Positions 16,649 through 41,942 of a stretch of DNA of 44,131 bases are shown piece by piece. The position numbers and the translations under genes were made by a program. The stretch spans positions 1 to 44,131 of the forward strand of contig DAHVKW010000003.1 in assembly GCA_027320695.1 (NCBI GenBank), in the 5' to 3' direction. The notes beneath the pieces were generated by a model. The model saw only the letters and a program-made list of their open reading frames with translations. It was not told the DNA's origin and ran no database searches. The stretch comes from Actinomycetota bacterium. GTDB lineage: Bacteria; Actinomycetota; Acidimicrobiia; Acidimicrobiales; Acidimicrobiaceae. The stretch's first letter is position 1. Every line of letters begins with the position of its first letter.

Positions 16649-18154
16649 TTAGATGTGTAGCTCCTCTTCGGGGTTGTCAAAAACTTTCACTACCGGGGGT
16701 TTGCCGGGCATTCCAAGGTCATCCCACCGGGCCAGGGCATTTTCGTACTGTTCGGTTGTCAATGCCGTCCTGCGTGAGAAGGTCTTGATATTCTTGAACT
16801 CCTTGCACGCGTAGATCAGGGCCTTTGATCCGTAGGGGCGCTCTTCATTGGGGTTCTTGCTCGGATCGAGGTAAGTTGACCATGTGTTGCGCAGGATGTC
16901 GATATCTTCGGAAACTCTGCAGCGCGTGGAAGCCGCCCAGATGACCTGTTCCAAATCGGATGGATCGACGTCATCGTCCACCACGTAGATGAATTTTGCG
17001 AAATACGCGCCTCCGGCACATTGGGCGGCGATCGCAGCTGCCTGTTGGGCATGGCCTGCGTACATCTGTTTCAGAGAGACCACAGTCATTCCGAACCCGC
17101 CAGCGGCAGAGGGTACAGACCATACGCCTTGAACTCCCGGGATACCACAGGCTTCGAGGTCGCGCCACACTCTCGCGCCGCGCATCACGGATAGGAAAAG
17201 GTTCTGCTCACACGACGGATGGTCAGCCATGAGCGCCGCCGTCATGATTGGCTGGTTCCTGAAATATATCGCCTTGATCTCTATGCTTGGCGTCTGTTCC
17301 AATCCGGGCCGGCCGTAATATCCTGTGAATTCGCCAAAGGGCCCCTCTTCGCGTCCGCCTTCGGGATAGGAGTATCCTTCGATTACCAACTCGGCTCTGG
17401 CTGGGATCGGCAGGCCGGTGATCTTGCCGGGAACTGTTTCGATCGGAGAACCTTGGAGTCCTCCAGCCGCATCATATTCCGATTCCTGTTTGGGGAATCC
17501 CGTTGCGGCGCAGATGAACAGCAAAGGGTCGACGCCGTAGACGCTGACCACCGGACACGGCTTTCCTTTGGCCCACCACTTCTCGCGGTCCAATAACGTG
17601 TCCTTGCCCGGGGAGGAGTAATATCCGACCCTGTCTTTTTCTTCAACCATCTGGCGGTATGTGCCAAGATTGATGCGCCCGGAGTCTGGATCCTGGGTGA
17701 TGATGACATCTGCGGTACCGATGTACGGTCCTCCGTCCCGCACCCAGTGGGTAGGAGTCGGGAAGTAGCTCAAATCGATATCGTCGCCCATCCAAACGTT
17801 TTCAAAAATGGGCGCGTCTTTCGGATCGATTGAAACGGGCTTGATTTTTTCGTCGAACTTTTCTTTTATGTACTGGACCAGTTCAATCGGGGTTTTGCCG
17901 GGAAGGGTCCGCATCGCCAGCGAAAGGCGGTTCATGCTGTTCCCGATGGGATTGAAAAGCACTCGCACGTCGCCTTTGTGGCCCTTTGGATTCTCGAACA
18001 GCAAAGTTGTTTGTTCGGAGTTTTTTCCGTTGAGATAGGTCAAAGCGCCCATTTCAAGATGAGGGTCCACCTCTTTGGTTATGTGGGTGACTTCCCCGAG
18101 CTTCTCTACGTCGCCCAGCCAGTCCCTCAGGTCGCGAATATCGACTTTGCTCAT
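16649..18154 (-). CDS. UbiD-family prFMN-dependent (de)carboxylase, copy 1
   Basis: UbiD signature region EEGPFGEFTGYYGRPG and YIGTADVIITQDPDSGRINLGTYRQMV; likely start MSKVDIRDLRDWLGDVEKLGE, inside the 16649..18223 ORF. Confidence 0.92.
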   Translation of the reverse strand: MSKVDIRDLRDWLGDVEKLGEVTHITKEVDPHLEMGALTYLNGKNSEQTTLLFENPKGHKGDVRVLFNPIGNSMNRLSLAMRTLPGKTPIELVQYIKEKFDEKIKPVSIDPKDAPIFENVWMGDDIDLSYFPTPTHWVRDGGPYIGTADVIITQDPDSGRINLGTYRQMVEEKDRVGYYSSPGKDTLLDREKWWAKGKPCPVVSVYGVDPLLFICAATGFPKQESEYDAAGGLQGSPIETVPGKITGLPIPARAELVIEGYSYPEGGREEGPFGEFTGYYGRPGLEQTPSIEIKAIYFRNQPIMTAALMADHPSCEQNLFLSVMRGARVWRDLEACGIPGVQGVWSVPSAAGGFGMTVVSLKQMYAGHAQQAAAIAAQCAGGAYFAKFIYVVDDDVDPSDLEQVIWAASTRCRVSEDIDILRNTWSTYLDPSKNPNEERPYGSKALIYACKEFKNIKTFSRRTALTTEQYENALARWDDLGMPGKPPVVKVFDNPEEELHI

Positions 18155-18745
18155 TTCAAATACCTCCAATTGCTGTCCGGCCAAATGAATTCCCCAAAGC
18201 GCCTCTAAATCGATACATGCCATACCCCTGCATTAAGTTTCGATGTAATAGTAAATTGGCTGTCAGCGCCGCTCCAAATCTGACGGTTGCGAAGCCCCTC
18301 ATGCTGGTATTTGGCTGCATGAATAAAATTAAGCATGACGGGCTCTGCGCTATAAGCTCCGGTGCCCACCGTTACCCAAGTACTCATGTGTCCCCATCGT
18401 CTGGCTTGATATAGTAGCTCGCAATTTGTTGGCTCTCTTAGGGTCCGCGCTATCTCACTGTGATATTTACAAGTTAGAATCGCTGTTTGATAATGACAAT
18501 AGCGCACCATGATAGAGAAATACAAATTTACCGAGAAATATTTTCTGCGCCTTGAGCTGGCATTTTTATCCACAGGCGGTTTTTTGAATTGAGGTCTTGA
18601 GAAACGCCTATGTTACAATTTCTTCGACCTGGCGTTCCACGGCTGTGGGGATGAACACTTTGAGGCTCATTGGGGGGTAACAGACCAGGATTGGGGCTAT
18701 CCCGTTGGATATTTTGGGGATATCTATGCTGCAGGAGGTATTATT

Positions 18746-20215
18746 TTGCAAAATTTAGGGGATTGGCTTACGAAAGTCGAAGAGCTGGGCGAGTTGAAAA
18801 AGATCTCCGCCGAAGTCGATCCAGTGCTCGAAATGTCGACAATAACTTACATGGCCGGCAAAGAGGTCGGAGGGCCGACGCTCCTATTCGAGAACATCAT
18901 GGATCGTCCAGGCCAAAGGGTGTTGTTCAACCCATATGGCTCGAGTTACAAGAGGCTGGCATTGGCAATCAGGGAAAACCCCGACGATAAGCCGATAGAG
19001 CTGGCTCACACTCTGGCCAGGAAGATGAAGCAGAGGATTGCGCCAAAGATAGTCGATGGCGCCACCGCTCCAGTCAATGAGAACATCGAGACCGGAGATG
19101 ATATCGACGTCACCAAGTTTGGCGCCCCTGTTATGTGGCCTAGAGATGGCGGGGCATACATAGGCACCGCAGACGTGGTGATAACCAGGGATCCCGAATC
19201 ATCGAGAGTCAACCTTGGCACCTATCGCCAGATGGTCGAAGGCCCGAAGCAGGTGGGATTCTACGCATCTCCCGGCAAGGACGCTCTTTTGGACAGGGAG
19301 CTTTGGTGGAAACAGGGCAAGCCTGCTCCGGTGGCGGCAGTTTACGGAGGCGACCCGCTTCTTTTCCTGGTGGCGGCGACCACATTTCCAAAAGACATCT
19401 CAGAATATGAGTTTGCCGGAGGAATTGCGGGTGAGCCGATCGAGGTGTTCGAGAGCGAGATCACCGGCCTGACGCTTCCAGCCCACGCCGAAATAATCAT
19501 CGAGGGCTTTGCGTATCCTGACCAGACCGCTCCTGAAGGTCCCTTCGGAGAGTTCCAGGGTTACTATGGACGTCCTGGAGGACCCACCCCGTACATAGAG
19601 ATAAAGGCAATTCGCTACCGGAATAACCCGATCCTCATGTCCGCGCTCATGGCGGATTGGCCCTCCAACGAATGCGGAGTCATGTGGGCTCTGGCCAAAT
19701 CGTCCAAGGTCTGGGATGATCTTGACTCCATGGGCGTCCCTGGAATCAAAGGAGTCTGGTCTCCCCCTGAGGCGGCTGGATGGGGCTGGACGGTTGTCTC
19801 GATCGAACAAAGATATGCTGGTCATGCCTCGCAGGTGGGAGCGCTTGCTGCCCAATGCATGGGTGGTGCCTACTTCACCAAGTACGTTGTGGTGGTGGAT
19901 GAAGATGTCGATCCGACGAGTTTGTCCGAGGTGGTTTGGGCTATGGCTACGCGTTCAAGGCCTAAGGATTCCATTGACATACTGCGTGAGACCTGGAGCA
20001 CTTACTTAGATCCAAGCCAGAACCCCGCGGAGATGAGACCCTGGGGCTCGAAGTGCATAATAAACGCCTGCAAAGAGTACAAGTACATCAACGAGTTCTC
20101 CAGGCGAACCCGGCTGGACAGGAAGGTGTACGAAAAGGTTTCGGCAAAATGGCAGGAGCTCGGGCTAAATGGCCTGCCTCCGCAGATCGACTTTTTCGAA
20201 GACGAGAACATTTAG
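18746..20215 (+). CDS. UbiD-family prFMN-dependent (de)carboxylase, copy 2
   Basis: TTG start after AGGAGGT; EGPFGEFQGYYGRPGGPTPYIEIKAIRYRNNPILMSALMADWPSNE. Confidence 0.92.
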   Translation: MQNLGDWLTKVEELGELKKISAEVDPVLEMSTITYMAGKEVGGPTLLFENIMDRPGQRVLFNPYGSSYKRLALAIRENPDDKPIELAHTLARKMKQRIAPKIVDGATAPVNENIETGDDIDVTKFGAPVMWPRDGGAYIGTADVVITRDPESSRVNLGTYRQMVEGPKQVGFYASPGKDALLDRELWWKQGKPAPVAAVYGGDPLLFLVAATTFPKDISEYEFAGGIAGEPIEVFESEITGLTLPAHAEIIIEGFAYPDQTAPEGPFGEFQGYYGRPGGPTPYIEIKAIRYRNNPILMSALMADWPSNECGVMWALAKSSKVWDDLDSMGVPGIKGVWSPPEAAGWGWTVVSIEQRYAGHASQVGALAAQCMGGAYFTKYVVVVDEDVDPTSLSEVVWAMATRSRPKDSIDILRETWSTYLDPSQNPAEMRPWGSKCIINACKEYKYINEFSRRTRLDRKVYEKVSAKWQELGLNGLPPQIDFFEDENI

Positions 20216-21009
20216 CTCTGGCCGGCCACAATTGAAATAACGGAAGTTGGATGTAAAGCCTTCCAACTTGGGCCTTGGCCTAGCGTGGGAAGTTGGATCA
20301 CGGATGTTTGGCGCATGTGGCAGACAGCCGCATGCGCCGATGATTTAATCGACTGGCGAATTTTTCGAGATGAAGCAAAGTTTGCTCTTCCAGCCCTGGC
20401 GGGTGGCAGCCGACAGCTTGGTCTACCAGGCGTCGCGAGCATGCCTAAATAGCTGATGAGTTTGACCCGTGAGGTTTGGGCGAGAAAGGTCGCAAGCCTC
20501 AGAAGGAGGCTCGCCAATTCTCAGGGGGAGGACATCGAGGGCCTTTCTTCTTGAGATCGGGGAGACATTTTTCTCATCAGACCGCAAAACACACGGCCAA
20601 AGACGTGCGCGATCTGGAGTGATTACCCGCCCCGATGTTTTGCGCAAGTTATCTCCCGTCATTCTTGGCCCAACTAGCAAATGTGATATGTCCGATATTG
20701 CCTGATGATAGACTCGCATTGATTTCAAGTGGAATAAGCGACTTTCGCAACAGCTGACCGGATTTGCGAATTGGCGCAGGCCATAGCAGCGAATTGATGT
20801 GCGATGCGCGCGGCACAGGCTTGGTATTGGCAAGTAGCAGGCATCGTGGGTCTGGCGCCGCTGTTGGCAAAGTAATACCATTAGTTGGTGGTTTGGCAAG
20901 CTAAATCCGCCGGTGACCTTCGGGAAATTTTTCCGAGGTCCGCGGCGGTGAAATGTTTGAGGGGATCAAAGCGCAGCGTCCCAGGTTTGGGCTTGAAAAG
21001 AGGGTGGAA

Positions 21010-22437
21010 ATGGCACAGGGGTTCAGGGATTATCTCGATTTTATGGAGAGCAAGCACCCATCGGAAATCTTGCACATAGACGGAGTAGTTAACCCGGCTG
21101 GTTTTGACGTGACAGCCGTTTTGACGCACCTGGAGAAGCAGGGGAAGTACCCAATGACGCTTTTCTCTAACTGCCTCAACCTGAAGGGCGAGATATCGCG
21201 TTTTCCGCTCGCTACCAACATCTACGCGTCTCGAAAGCGTTGCGCAATTGCGCTGGGACTTGAATCTGAGCAGAGCGGACTACCACTCGGAATTGAATAC
21301 GCTCGCCGGGAGGCCGGCAGAAAGACGCCCCTGGAGATACCGAGATCACAGGCTCCGGTGTGTCAAATCGTAAAAGTAGGGGACGAGGCCGATCTTGAAG
21401 AATTTCCTATCGTCAAACACCACTACATGGATGGGGGACCCTACGTTGATATGACTCCGGTTATGAAAGACCCGGATTCCGGTGCCTATAACATCGCATT
21501 TCTGCGGACCATGTACAAAGGGCCACGAAAGCTGGGCTTTCACATGTCACCCCGGCACAACTGGCAGATAGTGAGGAAAAACGAAGAAAAAGGCACTGGC
21601 ACCCCAGTGGTGATCGTGGTGAGTCACCATCCTGCCTTCTATCTCGGTGCGCTGAACGTTTCACCCTTTGGCGTGGATGACTACGAACTAATCGGTTCGA
21701 TTATGAATGAGCCGCTTCGCCTGACCCCATCCGCGACCTGGGGAAGTAATTTCATGATCCCGGCGGATGCGGAGATCATTATCGAAGGGGAAGTTCTTCC
21801 CAATGTTCGTGAGGTCGAGGGGCCCTTCGGCGAGTTTCCGGGAACTTTTGGACCTCAGCGGGTACGCTGGGTCATCGATGTCAAAGCCATCAGCTACCGT
21901 GAAGATGCCGTGTACCAGGATATCTTTGTAGGGCACAAGGACAATTGGACTCTGGGCGCCATACCAAAGGAAGGAACAATATTCAACCGGATAAAGGGAG
22001 TTGTTCCAACCATTCGAGGCCTGCACATGCCCGACTCGGGCGCTGGAAGGTTCAACTGCTACATCTCAATTGGCAAGAAAGTAAATGGAGAGAGCAAGCA
22101 AGCTGCCATGATCGCATTGGGCGAGTGCGACTTCGTCAAGAATGTGATCGTCGTCGACGAGGATGTCGATCCCTTCAATGAGCATGAAGTGATGTGGGCA
22201 GTCGCAACCAGGGTCCAAGCTTCACAGGATGTGGACATCATTAAGAATGTCAAAGGGAATACGCTTGATCCATCTCAGATCGACGATGTCTTGACCGACA
22301 AGATAATCATTGACGCCACCAAGCCCCTGGGCCGTCCTTTTGCCGAACGGGTTCGGGTTCCAGACGAATCGCTGGAGCGAATAAAGCTGGAGAATCTGGT
22401 AAGCCAAGATGAACTTGAGAAGTTAGCGAGGGGATAA
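21010..22437 (+). CDS. UbiD-family prFMN-dependent (de)carboxylase, divergent copy 3
   Basis: EGPFGEFPGTFGPQRVRWVIDVKAISYREDAVYQDIFVGHKDNWTLGAIPKEG. Preferred start ATG at 21010 (SD-like GAGGGTGG); ORF opens at 20953. Confidence 0.88.
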   Translation: MAQGFRDYLDFMESKHPSEILHIDGVVNPAGFDVTAVLTHLEKQGKYPMTLFSNCLNLKGEISRFPLATNIYASRKRCAIALGLESEQSGLPLGIEYARREAGRKTPLEIPRSQAPVCQIVKVGDEADLEEFPIVKHHYMDGGPYVDMTPVMKDPDSGAYNIAFLRTMYKGPRKLGFHMSPRHNWQIVRKNEEKGTGTPVVIVVSHHPAFYLGALNVSPFGVDDYELIGSIMNEPLRLTPSATWGSNFMIPADAEIIIEGEVLPNVREVEGPFGEFPGTFGPQRVRWVIDVKAISYREDAVYQDIFVGHKDNWTLGAIPKEGTIFNRIKGVVPTIRGLHMPDSGAGRFNCYISIGKKVNGESKQAAMIALGECDFVKNVIVVDEDVDPFNEHEVMWAVATRVQASQDVDIIKNVKGNTLDPSQIDDVLTDKIIIDATKPLGRPFAERVRVPDESLERIKLENLVSQDELEKLARG

Positions 22438-25978: not shown

Positions 25979-27250
25979 CTATCGCCTCTGACTCGCAAAG
26001 CAGCAGAGTTTGTACTTCTTCCCGCTTCCGCACGGGCAAGGGTCATTTCGCGATGCGGCTTTCCATTTCCGGCGTTCGCCAGTTTCCGATCTTTCGATTT
26101 CCGCCATGATCGACTGAGGGGACATCCCCTTTTTGTAGAATCTGAGAACCTCCTCCAGCTGTGGCTGCAGGTGGCGGTAGTAGGTTCGATAGCCCTCGCA
26201 GAGGTAGTTGAGGCCGTCTTGCCCATCGGGAGTTTGCGCGAAACGGTCCTTTGGACATCCGCCATTGCACAATGAGAGCACTGGGCACTCTTTGCAGTAG
26301 CGGGGCAGCGAGTCCTTTTTTGCCTGTCCGAAGGCCTTCTGTTTGGGAGATTCGATCAATTCCGCCAGGCTGCGGGTAGTCAGGTTGCCAAGGAAGTTAT
26401 CTGGATTCACGTAGTGGTCGCAGCTGTAGGTTCCGCCGTCGTGTTCAACTGCGAGAACCCTTCCGCAGGTTTCAGACATTATGCAAATGTTGGCGGGCTT
26501 GCCGCCCACCACCAGAAGGCATTCCAAGAAATTCTGGATGCCAATTTGCCCCAGATCGTGGCGGATCCATTCATCAAAGACCGTGGATAGGAAACTCCCC
26601 ATTGCTTGCGGATCTACTGACCAGGGGGCAACGCTTCCATCGCTTAGGCGGCTGACAACGGGTAGGAACTGGAGCCAGCGGACTTTCTGATCGAGGAAAA
26701 AGCGGTAGACCTCTCGGGGAAATTGCGAGTTCCGGGAATTGAGAGTGCAAAGGATGTCCGGCTCAATGCCGCGGGCGCGAAGCTGGCGCAGCCCTCGCAT
26801 GGCATTGCGGTGGCTCCCGTCGCCGTTTCGGTCGATCCGGTAGGCGTCGTGGAGATCTTCCGGACCGTCAAGGCTGAGTCCTACCGTGAAGCTATTCTCG
26901 GCCAGGAAATCACACCAGGCCTCGTCAAGACGCGTACCGTTGGTTTGCAGATTGTTCAGGCACTGCCATCCCTCGGGGGTGTACTTTGCTTGAAATTCCA
27001 GCGCCTTCCTGAAGAAGTCGATCCCCGCCAGCGTAGGCTCTCCTCCGTGCCAGACGAAGTGAACTACGGGTCCAGGACTTTCAGCTATGAACGATTTGAC
27101 GTATCCCTCGAGCACCTCCGGTCGCATCCGGAACCGCTCATCGGAAGGAAACAGAGACTTTTTTTGCAGGTAATAGCAGTAGTCGCAACTCAGGTTGCAT
27201 ATCGGTCCGATTGGTTTGGCCATGACAACAAAAGGAATCGTTACGGTCAT
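25979..27250 (-). CDS. Anaerobic sulfatase-maturase-type radical SAM/SPASM enzyme with C-terminal SEC-C motif
   Basis: CNLSCDYCYY radical SAM motif; WHGGEPTLAG; CKECPVLSLCNGGCPKDRF...GLNYLCEGYRTYY SPASM region; C-terminal NDPCPCGSGKKYKLCC. Confidence 0.92.
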   Translation of the reverse strand: MTVTIPFVVMAKPIGPICNLSCDYCYYLQKKSLFPSDERFRMRPEVLEGYVKSFIAESPGPVVHFVWHGGEPTLAGIDFFRKALEFQAKYTPEGWQCLNNLQTNGTRLDEAWCDFLAENSFTVGLSLDGPEDLHDAYRIDRNGDGSHRNAMRGLRQLRARGIEPDILCTLNSRNSQFPREVYRFFLDQKVRWLQFLPVVSRLSDGSVAPWSVDPQAMGSFLSTVFDEWIRHDLGQIGIQNFLECLLVVGGKPANICIMSETCGRVLAVEHDGGTYSCDHYVNPDNFLGNLTTRSLAELIESPKQKAFGQAKKDSLPRYCKECPVLSLCNGGCPKDRFAQTPDGQDGLNYLCEGYRTYYRHLQPQLEEVLRFYKKGMSPQSIMAEIERSETGERRKWKAASRNDPCPCGSGKKYKLCCFASQRR

Positions 27251-28181: not shown

Positions 28182-29558
28182 TCATTGCATGTTCATGTCG
28201 AAAACTGTTGGAATTCCCTTGTCCCAGTTGTCCCACAGAAAGTCGTTCTCAATGCCGTCTGCTATGAGTCTGAGCACATAGCGCACTTGATCCTTGTAAA
28301 AGTCGCAGAATGCGCCGCGCTGGTTGATCCCGCCGTTGATCTCGTGCGCTTCGGCGGGACAGGGGGCTCCGCAGAAATGGCGGATTGGACATGTTCCGCA
28401 CTCGTCGATCTCTTCGATCTTACGCCCCGTCACACTTTGGAAAGCGCTTGTTTCGAAGCAGGTCTCGAGTCCCCCGCTGAAAAGGTTTCCGCCATTGAAC
28501 TTGGGAAGGCCTATGAATTCGCTGCATGGGAAGAGATCTCCGCGGGCATTGACCGCGAAGAAGCAGCGGCCTCCGCCGCAGGGGGAGATGTCGCACATCA
28601 GCCTTCGAGCGGTGGGTGCCACGACAGCTAGCACAATGTTGGCAAAATTGGCGACAACTATCTTGCGTCCGGTCTCTGAATAGAGTTCGTGGGTCCTCTC
28701 GAGCGCTTTGAGGTATGACCTTGTAAAGTCGTCATCGCTAGGACGGACCTGCAGGCCTCCAGGAAGCGTGCAGCGCACCTGGTTGAGCATGCATGTTGGC
28801 ACTTCCAGGGAGTGGAAAAGCTCCACCATTTCGGTCAGGTGCTCGAGGTTCTGTGTCGTTACGGTTGTGATCACCGAATAGTTTTGGTATCCGCGCAGGC
28901 TCTCCATCACATCTATTACGCGATCATGGATCCCATGTCCGCTGAAGGTGTGCCTTGTCCGGTTTGTAATCTCAGCCGTAGGTCCATCCAGGGATAAGCC
29001 GAGACTTATGCCTCTTGAAGTTATGAACTCGATGGCTTCCGAGTCGAGCAGCGTTCCGTTAGTTTGTATCCCGAAGATGAAGTCGTCTTTGAAGTGATCG
29101 ATGGTGGCGAATACATTTGTCCGATTGAGCATTGGCTCGGAACCGTGAAAGATCAGCTGTGGTTTGACTCCGGGTGGCATCTGCCTGCGGAAATAGTCGA
29201 GAAGCAGGTCAAGGGCTTCAGTCAGCTGTTCCTTGGACATGTTTTGGCCGTGCCGGCGCATGGATTCCGGTAAATAGCAGTAGGTGCAGTTCAGATTGCA
29301 GCGCTCGGTGGGATTGAAGTACACCGCCGATGGAACCAGGCCGAATCGCAGATGGTCCATTTCTTCCGCGAACGCGCGCCTGTTTTCGCCTATCTTCTCC
29401 AGGAACCCTTTATCTGTGAGAATTTCTTTCGAAACATCTTTTCTGACTAGCGACCAAAAGGCGGTACCTGCATCGATGACTGCTTCATATTCCCGATGGT
29501 GAATATCGAACCTTACCAAGGATGGACTGGCGTCAGAGATCAAGCGGGTGTCGGTCAT
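28182..29558 (-). CDS. Radical SAM/SPASM peptide-modifying enzyme (resembles what I recall of the CbpB class)
   Basis: CNLNCTYCYLP radical SAM motif; HGSEPMLN; SPASM cysteines CDISPCGGGRCFFAVNARGDLFPCSEF...CGTCPIRHFCGAPCPAE; directly follows a short peptide ORF; SD GGAGAG before ATG. Confidence 0.9.
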   Translation of the reverse strand: MTDTRLISDASPSLVRFDIHHREYEAVIDAGTAFWSLVRKDVSKEILTDKGFLEKIGENRRAFAEEMDHLRFGLVPSAVYFNPTERCNLNCTYCYLPESMRRHGQNMSKEQLTEALDLLLDYFRRQMPPGVKPQLIFHGSEPMLNRTNVFATIDHFKDDFIFGIQTNGTLLDSEAIEFITSRGISLGLSLDGPTAEITNRTRHTFSGHGIHDRVIDVMESLRGYQNYSVITTVTTQNLEHLTEMVELFHSLEVPTCMLNQVRCTLPGGLQVRPSDDDFTRSYLKALERTHELYSETGRKIVVANFANIVLAVVAPTARRLMCDISPCGGGRCFFAVNARGDLFPCSEFIGLPKFNGGNLFSGGLETCFETSAFQSVTGRKIEEIDECGTCPIRHFCGAPCPAEAHEINGGINQRGAFCDFYKDQVRYVLRLIADGIENDFLWDNWDKGIPTVFDMNMQ

Positions 29559-29650
29559 TTGCTCACTCTCCGTTTAGCTCTGCTGTTGGACTTTGCAGAG
29601 TCCGCCAGTCCGGTCTCTTGTGCTGCAAGAAGTGCAATGGGTTCAAAGCG

Positions 29651-29794
29651 TCAAGCGACATCGGCTCTGCCCTCGTTCTCTTCTTGGTGAACCGGCGTGT
29701 TTACTACCAGTACGTAGTGAGACAGGCCTATACCGGTTGGTTGGCATGCTTTGCGGTACGCTGTCACCGTTGCTTTCTTGGATTTGGTCGTCAT
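29651..29794 (-). CDS. 47-aa RiPP precursor peptide candidate (CbpA-like), single Cys
   Basis: My translation: MTTKSKKATVTAYRKACQPTGIGLSHYVLVVNTPVHQEENEGRADVA. Strong SD GGGAGGGGGTG before ATG; lies between the cobalamin riboswitch and the radical SAM gene on the same strand; absent from the ORF track. Confidence 0.85.
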   Translation of the reverse strand: MTTKSKKATVTAYRKACQPTGIGLSHYVLVVNTPVHQEENEGRADVA

Positions 29795-29917
29795 TGTGTC
29801 ACCCCCTCCCGAGACAGTTCTGCTCGCGTGAAACTAAAAAGGGTGTGCGAGGATGGAAATGTAAACACCAGGCAAGCCTCCCGTTGCCAAGCTGCCGTTC
29901 CACAGGCAGGCTATGTC

Positions 29918-30082
29918 CTTACCGTCGAGGCCGGTCTCCTGACTTGCGCATCGCCATTTGCGTCACCTTCCCAGATGGCCAAGCATCCAGTGGTCAAAGA
30001 CGCAAACTCCACGCTTACAGTGGCGGGTCCGTGCCGGATTCTCACCGGCTTCCCGATTCTCCCCACATAAGGGGCACCTCGC
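29918..30082 (-). promoter_or_regulatory. Cobalamin (B12) riboswitch
   Basis: Minus strand has GGGAAGCCGGTGAGAATCCGGCACGGACCCGCCACTGTAAGC (core, ending at plus 30013) ... CATCTGGGAAGG ... AAGTCAGGAGACCGGCC (B12 box, plus 29929..29945). Confidence 0.97.
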
Positions 30083-30501
30083 GGTATTCAATTTTCAGTC
30101 ACCTTAGTAGTCAGCTGAAGCGCTGTCAACTTAGTCGGTGGTAATACTTGCAATTAGGCGGGCCGAAAGCCGATGGTGCCGTCAGCGTACGCCCGCTATG
30201 CGGGATAGCCGCCTAATGCTTGTATAGATCTCCTAGTCCAGCCCAATTTTGCATGTTCTGACCTCCAGGCGCATTTCAGCGCCGGCAAAGCTCACTTTGG
30301 ACAAAAAATTCAGCTCTACAGCAAACGAGGGATAAGTTCAAACAGGACCGCGCCCGACGAGATCTCATCGCGGTTCAGCTGCACTGGGAAATAACTGCCA
30401 GCGGGTACAACTCAAATTGAGTCCGGCTTCGCCTGATGTTTCTTTGCACCGATTGGGATCGGTTGAGCATATGGGAGCCTGAACCGCAGTTGCGGGGAGT
30501 C

Positions 30502-36801: not shown

Positions 36802-36937
36802 CAACGTGATCCATTCATTGTTGTCGTCCACTTGGTACTAAAGCTTACGCAGATCGAAGCGGTTGCGATTCAGTTTGCGATGTCGTGTCAGCTATCTGCA
36901 GCTAGCCTTGTTTAATCAGCGAAAACAGGTGAGTGTG

Positions 36938-37729
36938 ATGCATCGTTCAACTCTTGAGATTCTTGTCAAAAAATTTGAGTCTGGTGAGATAACCCAAGGC
37001 GAACTCGTAAGGCACCTCGAGTCTGGATTCATGCTTGATCTAGGTTATGCAAAGCTGGATACCCACAGGCCGCTTCGCCAGGGTTTCCCCGAGGTGATAT
37101 ATGGCCCAGGCAAGACCCCAGCCCAAGTAGCGCACATAGTCCAAGCCCTGGTAACTCAAGAGCCAGGTTCAACCGTGCTACTGAGCAGAGCGAGCACCGC
37201 GCAGCTTGACGCCGCCAAGGAGATTGCCGGAGAGGCGATCACTTTCTACCACGGATTGAGTCTTTCAGATTCCGGCCATTTCAGCGCGGTTTGGAACCCG
37301 GTGCCAATTCGAGACGGCGTCAGCGTTTGTGTCATTACCGGCGGAACAGCTGACCTGGCGGTGGCAACCGAGGTGACCGCGGTCCTTTTCGCATTCGGCG
37401 TGAGATCGGATTTGATCTCCGATTGCGGAGTGGCTGGAATTCACCGCCTTCTGGAGCAGACCGAGAGGATCCGAACCGCTGACGTAGTAGTGGTGGTGGC
37501 GGGAATGGAGGGCGCTATCGCTTCGGTTGTCGGGGGACTTGTAAAAGCGCCGGTTATAGCGGTTCCCACCAGCACTGGCTACGGGGCGTCGCTTGACGGA
37601 GTCACAGCGCTTTTGTCGATGCTTTCTAGCTGTACTCCCGGACTGAGCGTGGTTGGGATTGACAACGGTTTCGGAGCGGCAGTCAGCGCTATTCGGATAC
37701 TGGATTATGGCACGAGTCGCCTGGGTTAA
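36938..37729 (+). CDS. larB: LarB nickel-pincer cofactor biosynthesis protein
   Basis: LDTHRPLRQGFPEVIYGPGKTPAQV, PurE-like VCVITGGTADLAVATEV...DCGVAGIHRLL...VVVVAGMEGAIASVVGGLVKAPVIAVPTSTGYGAS. Confidence 0.93.
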   Translation: MHRSTLEILVKKFESGEITQGELVRHLESGFMLDLGYAKLDTHRPLRQGFPEVIYGPGKTPAQVAHIVQALVTQEPGSTVLLSRASTAQLDAAKEIAGEAITFYHGLSLSDSGHFSAVWNPVPIRDGVSVCVITGGTADLAVATEVTAVLFAFGVRSDLISDCGVAGIHRLLEQTERIRTADVVVVVAGMEGAIASVVGGLVKAPVIAVPTSTGYGASLDGVTALLSMLSSCTPGLSVVGIDNGFGAAVSAIRILDYGTSRLG

Positions 37730-38948
37730 TCCCACTTCCGGCGTCAGCGGAGATATGCTCCTGTCCGCAATGGTGGACCTTGGCGCGGACCAGGAAGAGC
37801 TGTGCAGCGCATTGAGCACAATCGAAGCTCTGGATGGTTTTCAACTCCGGTTTGACCCTGTGACCCGCTGCGGATTGAGAGCGCTCCATGCGGAAGTCAA
37901 GCTGCCTGAGACGGGGGTGCACAGGAGGCTTTCCCAGGTCCATTCGATCATTGACCATTCGGATCTGAGCCAGCCGCAGAAAGACCTGTCAATGGAGATC
38001 TTTTCCAAGCTGGCTCAGGCGGAAGCAAAAGTGCACGGAGTAACAGTCGAGGAAGTCGAGCTGCATGAGGTAGGAGCGCTGGACTCCATTTTGGACATAT
38101 GCGGATTCGCGGTCGCAAAGGATCTTCTTGGGTTTGATCAGCTCTATACCTCTCCTCCCGCGCTCGGCAGGGGAGTGTCGAGAGGCTCCCATGGGGGCCT
38201 GGCTGTTCCGGTTCCGGCAGTTCTCGAGCTATTGGCGGACAAGCAAGCATACGGGGGCTCTCCGGATTTCGAAGCTACCACTCCAACTGGAGCGGCAATC
38301 CTTTCATCAGCGGCCGTATTTTGCGAGCAGATGCCGGAGATGATCATTAGTGCCGTTGGGTACGGCGCGGGCACCAAGGATCCTGTCGAGTTCCCTAATG
38401 TCGTGCAAATGACCCTCGGGACTATTAGCCATGAAGAGCATCGCGCTCCGCAGTTGCCGGGTCACTTCGAGCAGATCGTGGAGCTTCAGACCAATCTCGA
38501 CGACATTACAGGCGAGCTGAGCGGGTATTTGATTTCCGCTTTATTGTCCAAGGGGGCATTGGATGCCTTTGTTACCCCGGTCATTGCCAAGAAAGACCGC
38601 TCAGGCATGCTGCTAACTGTGGCTGCATCTTCCAACGACGCTGTTGGAATCTGTACAGAAATGTTTTCCCTTACCGGAACCCTTGGAATTAGAACAATAC
38701 CCAAATGGCGCTATGTTTTGGACCGTCAGTTCTTCGAAGTCACCGTTCTGGGGGAGGTCTTGTCAGTGAAGGCGGGACCTTTTAGAGCCAAGGTGGAGTT
38801 CAGCCAGCTGGCCGATTTAGCGGAGAAGCGAAATGTGCCGATCGTGCAGCTGGAGCGGATGGTTCAGACGGAGATCGAAAACTATATGCGAGCCAATTCG
38901 ATAGATTTTAGTTATGGAGAATGGCCCCCCGAGGGCGAGATTGGATAG
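37707..38948 (+). CDS. larC: LarC nickel insertion protein
   Basis: NPTSGVSGDMLLSAMVDLGAD, EVELHEVGALDSILDICG, TPTGAAIL, QTNLDDITGE; overlaps larB by 23 nt. Confidence 0.93.
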   Translation: MARVAWVNPTSGVSGDMLLSAMVDLGADQEELCSALSTIEALDGFQLRFDPVTRCGLRALHAEVKLPETGVHRRLSQVHSIIDHSDLSQPQKDLSMEIFSKLAQAEAKVHGVTVEEVELHEVGALDSILDICGFAVAKDLLGFDQLYTSPPALGRGVSRGSHGGLAVPVPAVLELLADKQAYGGSPDFEATTPTGAAILSSAAVFCEQMPEMIISAVGYGAGTKDPVEFPNVVQMTLGTISHEEHRAPQLPGHFEQIVELQTNLDDITGELSGYLISALLSKGALDAFVTPVIAKKDRSGMLLTVAASSNDAVGICTEMFSLTGTLGIRTIPKWRYVLDRQFFEVTVLGEVLSVKAGPFRAKVEFSQLADLAEKRNVPIVQLERMVQTEIENYMRANSIDFSYGEWPPEGEIG

Positions 38949-40383: not shown

Positions 40384-41859
40384 CTAACTTCGAAGATCTT
40401 CCGGTTCGAACAGGTTGACTATCGGGGCCTCGCCTTTGAGTCCAAGCTCTTGCCATCTGGCAGCCACTTTCTCGTATACATTTCTATCGAGACGCGTGCG
40501 TTTCGCGAATTCCTTGATGTATTTGAACTCTTTGCAAGCGTTGATGATGCATTTTGATCCCCAAGGTCTGAGCTCAGGAGGGTTCTGGCTGGGGTCTAGA
40601 TAGGTGCTCCAAGTTTCTCGCAAGATATCGATAGAGTCTTTTGGCCTGGACCTAGTGGCCATCGCCCAAATCACTTCGGCGAGATTCGCCGGATCGACGT
40701 CCTCGTCTACCACCACGACGTACTTGGTGAAGTACGCTCCTCCCATGCACTGGGCTGCCAGCGCGCCCACTTGTGCCGCATGGCCAGCATATTTTTGCTC
40801 TATCGATACGACAGTCCAGCCCCATCCGGCAGCTTCCGGAGGGGACCATACTCCTTTGATCCCCGGCACTCCCATGGACTCGAGGTCGCTCCATACCTTC
40901 GCAGATTTTGCCAGTCCCCACATCGCTCCAGCTTCATTGGACGGCCAATCCGCCATAAGGGCTGACATTAATATCGGATTGTTGCGATACCGTATTGCGC
41001 TGATCTCGATATATGGAGTCGGTCCTCCCGGTCGACCGTAGTAGCCCTGAAATTCTCCGAAGGGGCCTTCTTGTTCAACTTGGTTAGGGTACGAGAACCC
41101 CTCGATGATGATCTCAGCGTTGGCTGGAAGCTTCAGGCCGGTGATTTCGCTGGTGAAGACTTCTATTGGCTCTCCAGCTATGCCACCCGCGAATTCATAT
41201 TCGGAAACGTCTTTAGGAAATGTGGTGGCCGCCGTCAGGTAGAGCAGCGGGTCGCATCCATACACGGCTGCGACAGGAGCTGGCTTGCCTTGGCTCCACC
41301 AGAGCTCGCGGTCAAGCAATGCGTCTTTTCCTGGAGAAGCGTAGAAGCCAACTTGGTTTGGTCCTTCGATCATCTGCCTGTAGGTTCCAAGGTTGATTCT
41401 CTTTGAATTTGGATCCATGGTGAGAACCACGTCGGCTGTTCCTATGTATGCGCCTCCGTCTCCGGGCCACATCACCGGTGCTCCAAACTTAGTGACGTCG
41501 ACTTCGTCGCCCATTTCAATGTTCTGGTTCACCGGAGCGCTGCTCGGATCGACTTTTATTGGCTGAGTTCTGTAGCTCATCTTGTGCGCTAGGGTTCGCG
41601 CGAGATCAAGCGGCCCCGTTTCAGGGTCTTCGCGAACGGTGACGGCAAGCCTGCGGTAACTCGAACCGAAGGGGTTGAACAGGACTCGAAAGCCTCGATG
41701 TCCTTGGATATTCTCGAAGAGCAGGGTGGGACCTCCAACCTGCTTACCAGAAAGATATGTGATGGTAGACATCTCGAGGACCGGGTCAACCTCAGCCTCG
41801 ATTCTTGTGAGCTCCCCTAAATCCTCGACCTTTGCCAGCCAATCACCTAAGCTTTTCAC
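40384..41859 (-). CDS. UbiD-family prFMN-dependent (de)carboxylase, copy 4 (very similar to copy 2)
   Basis: EGPFGEFQGYYGRPGGPTPYIEISAIRYRNNPILMSALMADWPSNE; likely GTG start at 41859 preceded by AGGAG. Confidence 0.92.
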   Translation of the reverse strand: MKSLGDWLAKVEDLGELTRIEAEVDPVLEMSTITYLSGKQVGGPTLLFENIQGHRGFRVLFNPFGSSYRRLAVTVREDPETGPLDLARTLAHKMSYRTQPIKVDPSSAPVNQNIEMGDEVDVTKFGAPVMWPGDGGAYIGTADVVLTMDPNSKRINLGTYRQMIEGPNQVGFYASPGKDALLDRELWWSQGKPAPVAAVYGCDPLLYLTAATTFPKDVSEYEFAGGIAGEPIEVFTSEITGLKLPANAEIIIEGFSYPNQVEQEGPFGEFQGYYGRPGGPTPYIEISAIRYRNNPILMSALMADWPSNEAGAMWGLAKSAKVWSDLESMGVPGIKGVWSPPEAAGWGWTVVSIEQKYAGHAAQVGALAAQCMGGAYFTKYVVVVDEDVDPANLAEVIWAMATRSRPKDSIDILRETWSTYLDPSQNPPELRPWGSKCIINACKEFKYIKEFAKRTRLDRNVYEKVAARWQELGLKGEAPIVNLFEPEDLRS

Positions 41860-41942
41860 CCTCTGCACTCCTTTCCTAAAGCCCGAAACTGTCTGGCGTT
41901 TTGGAGCCAAAACCTACTTGGATCATCCAAGCCGCTACAGCT

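Follow-up and report, generated by a model that had tools for sequence, protein, structure and literature searches.

A cobalamin riboswitch-led precursor peptide and radical SAM enzyme pair linked to B12 genes across bacterial phyla

The cbpAB locus and its products

We analyzed a 44,131-nucleotide stretch of actinobacterial DNA, hereafter the window. On its minus strand, a cobalamin riboswitch is followed by an open reading frame (ORF) for a peptide of 47 amino acids and then by the gene of a 458-aa radical SAM/SPASM enzyme. In minus-strand order, the features of this locus are:

29912-30095, minus strand: cobalamin riboswitch aptamer (RF00174; cmscan 120.8 bits against a gathering score of 31.5, E = 6.3e-30, model positions 1-189 of 189)
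29892-29909, minus strand: P13-like hairpin behind the aptamer, CTGCC-loop-GGCAG, kept in 11 actinobacterial loci
29871-29888, minus strand: hairpin GGCAA-CGGGAGGC-TTGCC, which holds the Shine-Dalgarno (SD) sequence of the leader ORF (90.9% of cells paired, 11 loci)
29791-29868, minus strand: leader ORF of 25 codons with a GTG start, its TGA overlapping the cbpA ATG as ATGA, at the corresponding place in L036-L039
29800-29810, minus strand: SD sequence of cbpA, GGGAGGGGGTG, about 5 nt before the ATG
29651-29794, minus strand: cbpA, 47-aa precursor peptide with one Cys and the core TAYRKACQPTGIGLSHYVLV (TIGR04164, 36.8 bits; cut-off 35)
28182-29558, minus strand: cbpB, 458-aa radical SAM/SPASM peptide maturase with a CNLNCTYC motif and SPASM domain (TIGR04163, 680.8 bits; cut-off 375)

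A preliminary description of this DNA had proposed a near-consensus cobalamin riboswitch, a short ORF with a very strong SD, and a radical SAM/SPASM gene about 90 nt farther on. All three hold: the aptamer matches RF00174 over its full length, the SD stands directly before the 47-aa ORF, and the gap between the peptide stop and the enzyme gene measures 92 nt. The same description had tentatively proposed a CbpA/CbpB match, and the HMM searches bear this out, with the two adjacent genes scoring above both curated cut-offs. Nothing excludes membership of the NCBIfam pair; the actinobacterial leader ORF, or N-terminal extension, is local variation. That no B12 gene adjoins the riboswitch is true of the genes tested around it. 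The 25-codon leader ORF between the aptamer and cbpA had been overlooked.

CbpB carries a CX3CX2C SAM-cluster motif together with SPASM cysteines. Eleven cysteines are invariant in 63 of 63 CbpB sequences (C87/C91/C94, C322, C327, C345, C387, C390, C396, C400, and C418), a number sufficient for a SAM cluster and two auxiliary clusters. An AlphaFold2 model of CbpB is confident (pLDDT 88.9), and the PDB entries closest to CbpB in both fold and sequence are CteB, a SCIFF thioether maturase, and anSMEcpe. CteB (5wgg/5why) is the top match for both fold and PDB sequence (E = 3e-20 and 4e-34) and has the same SPASM arrangement. However, CbpB reaches only 109.6 bits against the SCIFF maturase cut-off of 425 (TIGR03974), and CbpA has one Cys, not six.

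The NCBIfam maturases nearest after CbpB itself are PapB, DynA, and the anaerobic sulfatase maturases (anSMEs), all far under their cut-offs. The ranthipeptide maturase PapB (NF047865) is the closest of these, at 139.1 bits. This is nevertheless below the 340-bit cut-off, and the residue at Cys+4 in CbpA is an invariant Gly rather than Asp or Glu. The anSMEs (TIGR03942) share the fold and cluster layout of CbpB, which scores 112.8 against 349 bits, but CbpB has an invariant Ser in place of the Asp that follows the SPASM Cys. The stretch after the SPASM Gly-x4-Cys reads Cys-Asp in anSMEs and an invariant Cys-Ser-Glu-Phe in CbpB. The N-terminal 76 residues of CbpB are predicted to form three strands and then three helices, in the order of a PqqD-like RRE; a fold search with this domain alone and Pfam gave no significant match. 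CbpB would modify CbpA, most likely by a thioether or another cross-link involving the invariant Cys.

We located CbpA by motif in 73 loci. Its core has the consensus VIAxRKxCxAxGTGLSHYIL and is followed by a short, often Lys-rich tail. The Cys and the Arg at -3 are invariant in all 73 peptides, and variation in the G-x-G-L-S-H-Y stretch is rare. L048 and L073 have a GLAHY variant. Among 11 actinobacterial sequences, purifying selection on the core is strong (pooled pS of 0.72, pN of 0.16). CbpA lies upstream of CbpB in nearly all relatives not cut by a contig end (80 loci). Given this recurrence and the selection on the core, the arrangement in the window is not a chance one. The score of 36.8 bits is by itself narrow, and it is this conservation across relatives that makes the CbpA assignment firm. 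In many homologues, the cbpA SD resembles AAGGAGGTGATC, the extended complement of the anti-SD, and cbpA may therefore be highly expressed.

Distribution and linkage to B12 genes

A scan of genome contigs with three CbpB queries, the ones found in the phylum of the window, returned 208 relatives. We kept 80 loci (L036-L115), which are 54-90% identical and, going by their record titles, come from more than twelve phyla. The CbpB cut-off is exceeded in only 3 of 398 genomes of the window's phylum. The CbpB family is sparse but wide. In a tree of 63 CbpB sequences, Actinobacteria form a single supported clade to which the window belongs, and several other phyla intermingle. This mixing is compatible with a degree of horizontal spread, without amounting to proof. 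Phage records yielded only distant radical SAM proteins, under 60% identity.

The CbpA/CbpB family itself is not new, as it is already named and is annotated by NCBI in a cultured strain. Plasmid pHY1 of Methylovirgula sp. HY1 (L117, 14795-16374) has an NCBI-annotated cbpA-cbpB pair whose neighbors are nar genes, a Crp/Fnr regulator, and pqqADE; this pair has no cobalamin riboswitch and no B12 neighbors. A literature search, with most subscription journals outside its reach, found nothing on CbpB, on TIGR04163/TIGR04164, or on the combination of a riboswitch with a RiPP and a radical SAM enzyme.

We searched the genomes behind all 80 loci for RF00174 and placed the matches on the contigs by their coordinates; 19 loci were scanned directly with cmscan. 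Coordinate mapping gave some coincidental matches (the sole match of L086 lay beyond its contig and was left out), and the placements were therefore checked again for aptamer motifs. Among the 72 loci whose upstream DNA reaches 500 nt or more, 56 have a cobalamin riboswitch that lies in the orientation of cbpB and precedes it by 140-550 nt. Conserved aptamer motifs are present at the mapped place in 55 of these 56 (the exception is L111). The other 16 loci have no riboswitch within 1 kb.

Eleven of these 16 riboswitch-less loci are near genes for cobalamin biosynthesis or corrinoid uptake (L049, L057, L067, L073, L075, L078, L085, L088, L091, L103, and L108). Nearly all of the 11 have cbpAB within such a cluster, in most cases reading in the same direction as the genes around it; the neighbor listed for L088 is CobO, about 3 kb off. 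Representatives of the B12-neighbor families were confirmed by NCBIfam or Pfam, and the other members were assigned by blastp to these representatives. Gene orders include CbiM-CbiQ-ATPase-cbpAB-CbiX-CbiC-CbiD (L049), CbiA-CbiC-cbpAB-CbiX-CbiM (L073), and CobT-CobS-cbpAB-BtuF-BtuC-CobO (L057). Some riboswitch loci also have B12-type neighbors (L081, L104, L110, L084, and L082). In L041, L048, L082, and L106 the gene immediately 3' of cbpB is cobT, which the contig end truncates in L041; in L046, the next genes are bluB and a partial cobT, in that order. Neither a riboswitch nor B12 neighbors were found in 5 of the 72 loci (L044, L045, L053, L102, and L112). A riboswitch or a gene cluster ties cbpAB to the B12 regulon in about 93% of assessable loci (67/72), and no single B12 step consistently adjoins cbpAB.

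A short stretch resembling the N terminus of CobT lies right behind cbpB in L047, perhaps as a remnant, and an intact CobT is encoded elsewhere in that genome. Asparagine-synthase-like and Diphthami_syn_2 (Dph6-like) proteins are encoded between cbpAB and btu genes, or beside cbpAB, in L057, L075, L078, and L103, three of which also have a small radical SAM protein at that place. These proteins may belong to the same process as cbpAB.

Conserved structures of the leader

The stretch between aptamer and cbpA differs among phyla. Under the stricter of two tests, a strong terminator precedes cbpA in 38 of 53 loci that have the riboswitch, where dinucleotide-shuffled sequences give 1.0 on average; under the looser one, a stem and then a T-run stand between aptamer and cbpA in 41 of 55. 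Outside Actinobacteria, such a terminator follows the switch at most loci, while the actinobacterial clade that includes the window has a conserved hairpin pair instead. Actinobacterial loci lack a terminator on the stricter reading, and the looser test finds only weak stems in L036 and L043. In the window, no strong stem plus T-run of an intrinsic terminator lies between the aptamer and cbpA, so that the leader does not have the form of a transcriptional-type switch.

Single-sequence minimum free energy folds of the window leader gave no significant structure, and the covarying hairpins emerged from comparison. Across the 11 actinobacterial loci, the P13-like hairpin has 100% of cells paired, with three of its five pairs changed on both sides. 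Taken together, the two hairpins have 95.5% of cells paired and four pairs with two-sided changes, which no shuffle equalled. In the window, the SD of the leader ORF sits in the loop of the second hairpin. The GGGAG of this hairpin is 9 nt from the start codon in 9 of the 11 loci, and 8 nt and 6 nt in L043 and L048, respectively. A start site within conserved structure behind the aptamer is the arrangement of a translational-type riboswitch, and the window riboswitch appears to be of this type.

What the hairpin-borne start opens varies within the clade. The window and L036-L038 have the 25-codon ORF with the ATGA overlap, and L039 has a 22-codon ORF that ends at the cbpA SD. In L041-L043 and L046-L048, the same start opens CbpA itself, as an in-frame N-terminal extension. 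The leader peptide shows no clear selection (pS 0.38, pN 0.31), which suggests that its translation, rather than its product, is likely what matters. A comparable leader is known from Mycobacterium tuberculosis ppe2, where a B12 riboswitch was shown experimentally to act through a leader ORF that overlaps the next start as AUGA (PMC11260477). In both systems, a B12 riboswitch is followed by a short ORF whose stop codon shares bases with the following start codon in this way. Unlike the window cbpA with its strong SD, however, ppe2 has no SD of its own, and its switch is assigned to Class IIb (PMC11260477).

A possible role in corrinoid supply

The gene content of CbpB-bearing genomes bears on the stage at which the pair might act. 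CbiC was found in 36 of 50 such genomes, compared with 55 of 199 in the sample of the window's phylum, and is present in the window genome and in all ten actinobacterial CbpB-bearing genomes tested. CobT is present in 46 of the 50. CbiC is missing from 14 of the 50, and 12 of these lack CbiD too. In seven of the 12 (L057, L075, L078, L081, L103, L104, and L110), cbpAB lies in or beside CobT/CobS/CbiB or Btu-type genes. All of these are metagenome-assembled genomes (MAGs) of unstated completeness. CbpB-bearing genomes are mostly incomplete MAGs; absence of CbiC and CbiD is thus weaker than presence and is suggestive. These genomes argue for a stage that B12 makers have in common with salvagers, and a role in cobalt insertion or ring building only is weakened by such apparent salvagers. 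A simple replacement of BluB by cbpAB is not general either, since BluB is above its cut-off in 12 of the 50 genomes and bluB directly follows cbpB in L046.

We consider there to be about an even chance that CbpA/CbpB, under a B12-repressed riboswitch, supplies a radical-modified intracellular peptide that serves corrinoid supply when B12 is scarce. At low cobalamin, the switch would leave the leader start site open, a direction expected from this class of RNA. In the clade of the window, ribosomes would first translate the leader ORF, a short one, and then begin again on cbpA where the two overlap as ATGA; in most other phyla, scarcity of B12 would instead block formation of the terminator. 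CbpB would carry one SAM-binding and two auxiliary clusters and act on the short invariant core of CbpA, the likeliest product being a cross-link with the invariant Cys. Because no signal peptide, exporter, or protease gene adjoins CbpA, we infer that the modified peptide remains within the cell. There it would act in corrinoid supply at a stage common to makers and salvagers, rather than in ring building alone; candidate stages are corrinoid handling, nucleotide-loop assembly, reduction, or uptake. Against this reading stand the five loci and the Methylovirgula plasmid pair that have neither a riboswitch nor B12 neighbors, as well as the lack of any one B12 step that regularly adjoins cbpAB.

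Could the modified peptide instead spare B12? Modified CbpA, or a cofactor cut from it, might replace cobalamin in some reaction, in the manner of MetE/NrdAB, and be repressed by B12 for that reason. Such a role would suit the many loci, the majority, that consist of a stand-alone riboswitch-cbpAB unit with a terminator, resembling riboswitch-controlled B12-independent isozymes, and also the persistence of the pair in apparent salvagers. But in several phyla cbpAB lies in or beside cob/cbi/btu clusters, of which B12-replacing isozymes are not known to be usual members. The substitute for a B12-dependent process that the preliminary description had offered survives as a rather unlikely alternative with a poorer fit to this operon embedding. 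The other suggestion made there, cobalt/B12 acquisition, gains support as a general idea from the linkage of cbpAB to cob/cbi/btu genes; a role in cobalt alone is weakened by the CbpB-bearing genomes without ring-synthesis markers. We hold it unlikely that modified CbpA is a cobalt chaperone or cobaltophore, binding Co(II) through its Cys and His to feed a cobaltochelatase or transporter. Both residues are invariant in the core, cbpAB adjoins CbiM, CbiQ, and CbiX in L049 and L073, and the window genome, in addition to CbiC, has a riboswitch-led contig with ORFs that, read by eye, resemble CobU/CobS/CobQ/CobN-type genes. Yet the 12 of 50 genomes missing CbiC and CbiD, seven of them with the pair in salvage-type clusters, and the lack of an exporter or receptor at most loci speak against it.

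Formylglycine-type chemistry, in which CbpB would oxidize the CbpA Cys within a C-x-(A/P)-x core as anSMEs do, appears very improbable. CbpB is a clear anSME relative in sequence and fold (4k36-4k39), and Ala or Pro stands at +2 from the Cys in most CbpA peptides. Against this, its score is far under the anSME cut-off, and the Arg that closes the motif is an invariant Gly in CbpA. CbpB also has its invariant C-S-E-F where anSMEs have C-D (CDHY in the window's own anSME), and the Asp at that place is their catalytic base.

The preferred reading, an intracellular peptide serving corrinoid supply, has one specific and speculative form. Modified CbpA might be a conserved, genetically encoded corrinoid-handling peptide. 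Its invariant His (with the Cys or the modified residue) would rest on the cobalt atom of incomplete corrinoids, and the peptide would deliver them, in makers as in salvagers, to CobT/CobU/CobS, the enzymes of the nucleotide loop. We regard this form as improbable; if it is true, a widespread part of B12 metabolism has been missed, one made by RiPP chemistry. Few cofactor pathways are as well mapped as that of B12, yet cbpAB is probably an unrecognized part of bacterial B12 supply. The CbpA core is as constrained as a cofactor peptide, and named family members occur in cultured strains, among them Paramagnetospirillum caucaseum SO-1 and Methylovirgula sp. HY1.

Other genes of the window include a second radical SAM/SPASM enzyme, an anSME with a C-terminal SEC-C motif (25979-27250, minus strand; TIGR03942, 436.8 bits). 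An anSME is encoded downstream of cbpB in the window, L036, L038, and L039. Four UbiD-family decarboxylases are also encoded in the window (16649-18223, minus; 18746-20215, plus; 20953-22437, plus; 40384-41910, minus). On the plus strand, at 36863-38948, an AIR-carboxylase-like protein and then a nickel insertion protein (PF00731, PF01969) form a LarB/LarC-like pair.
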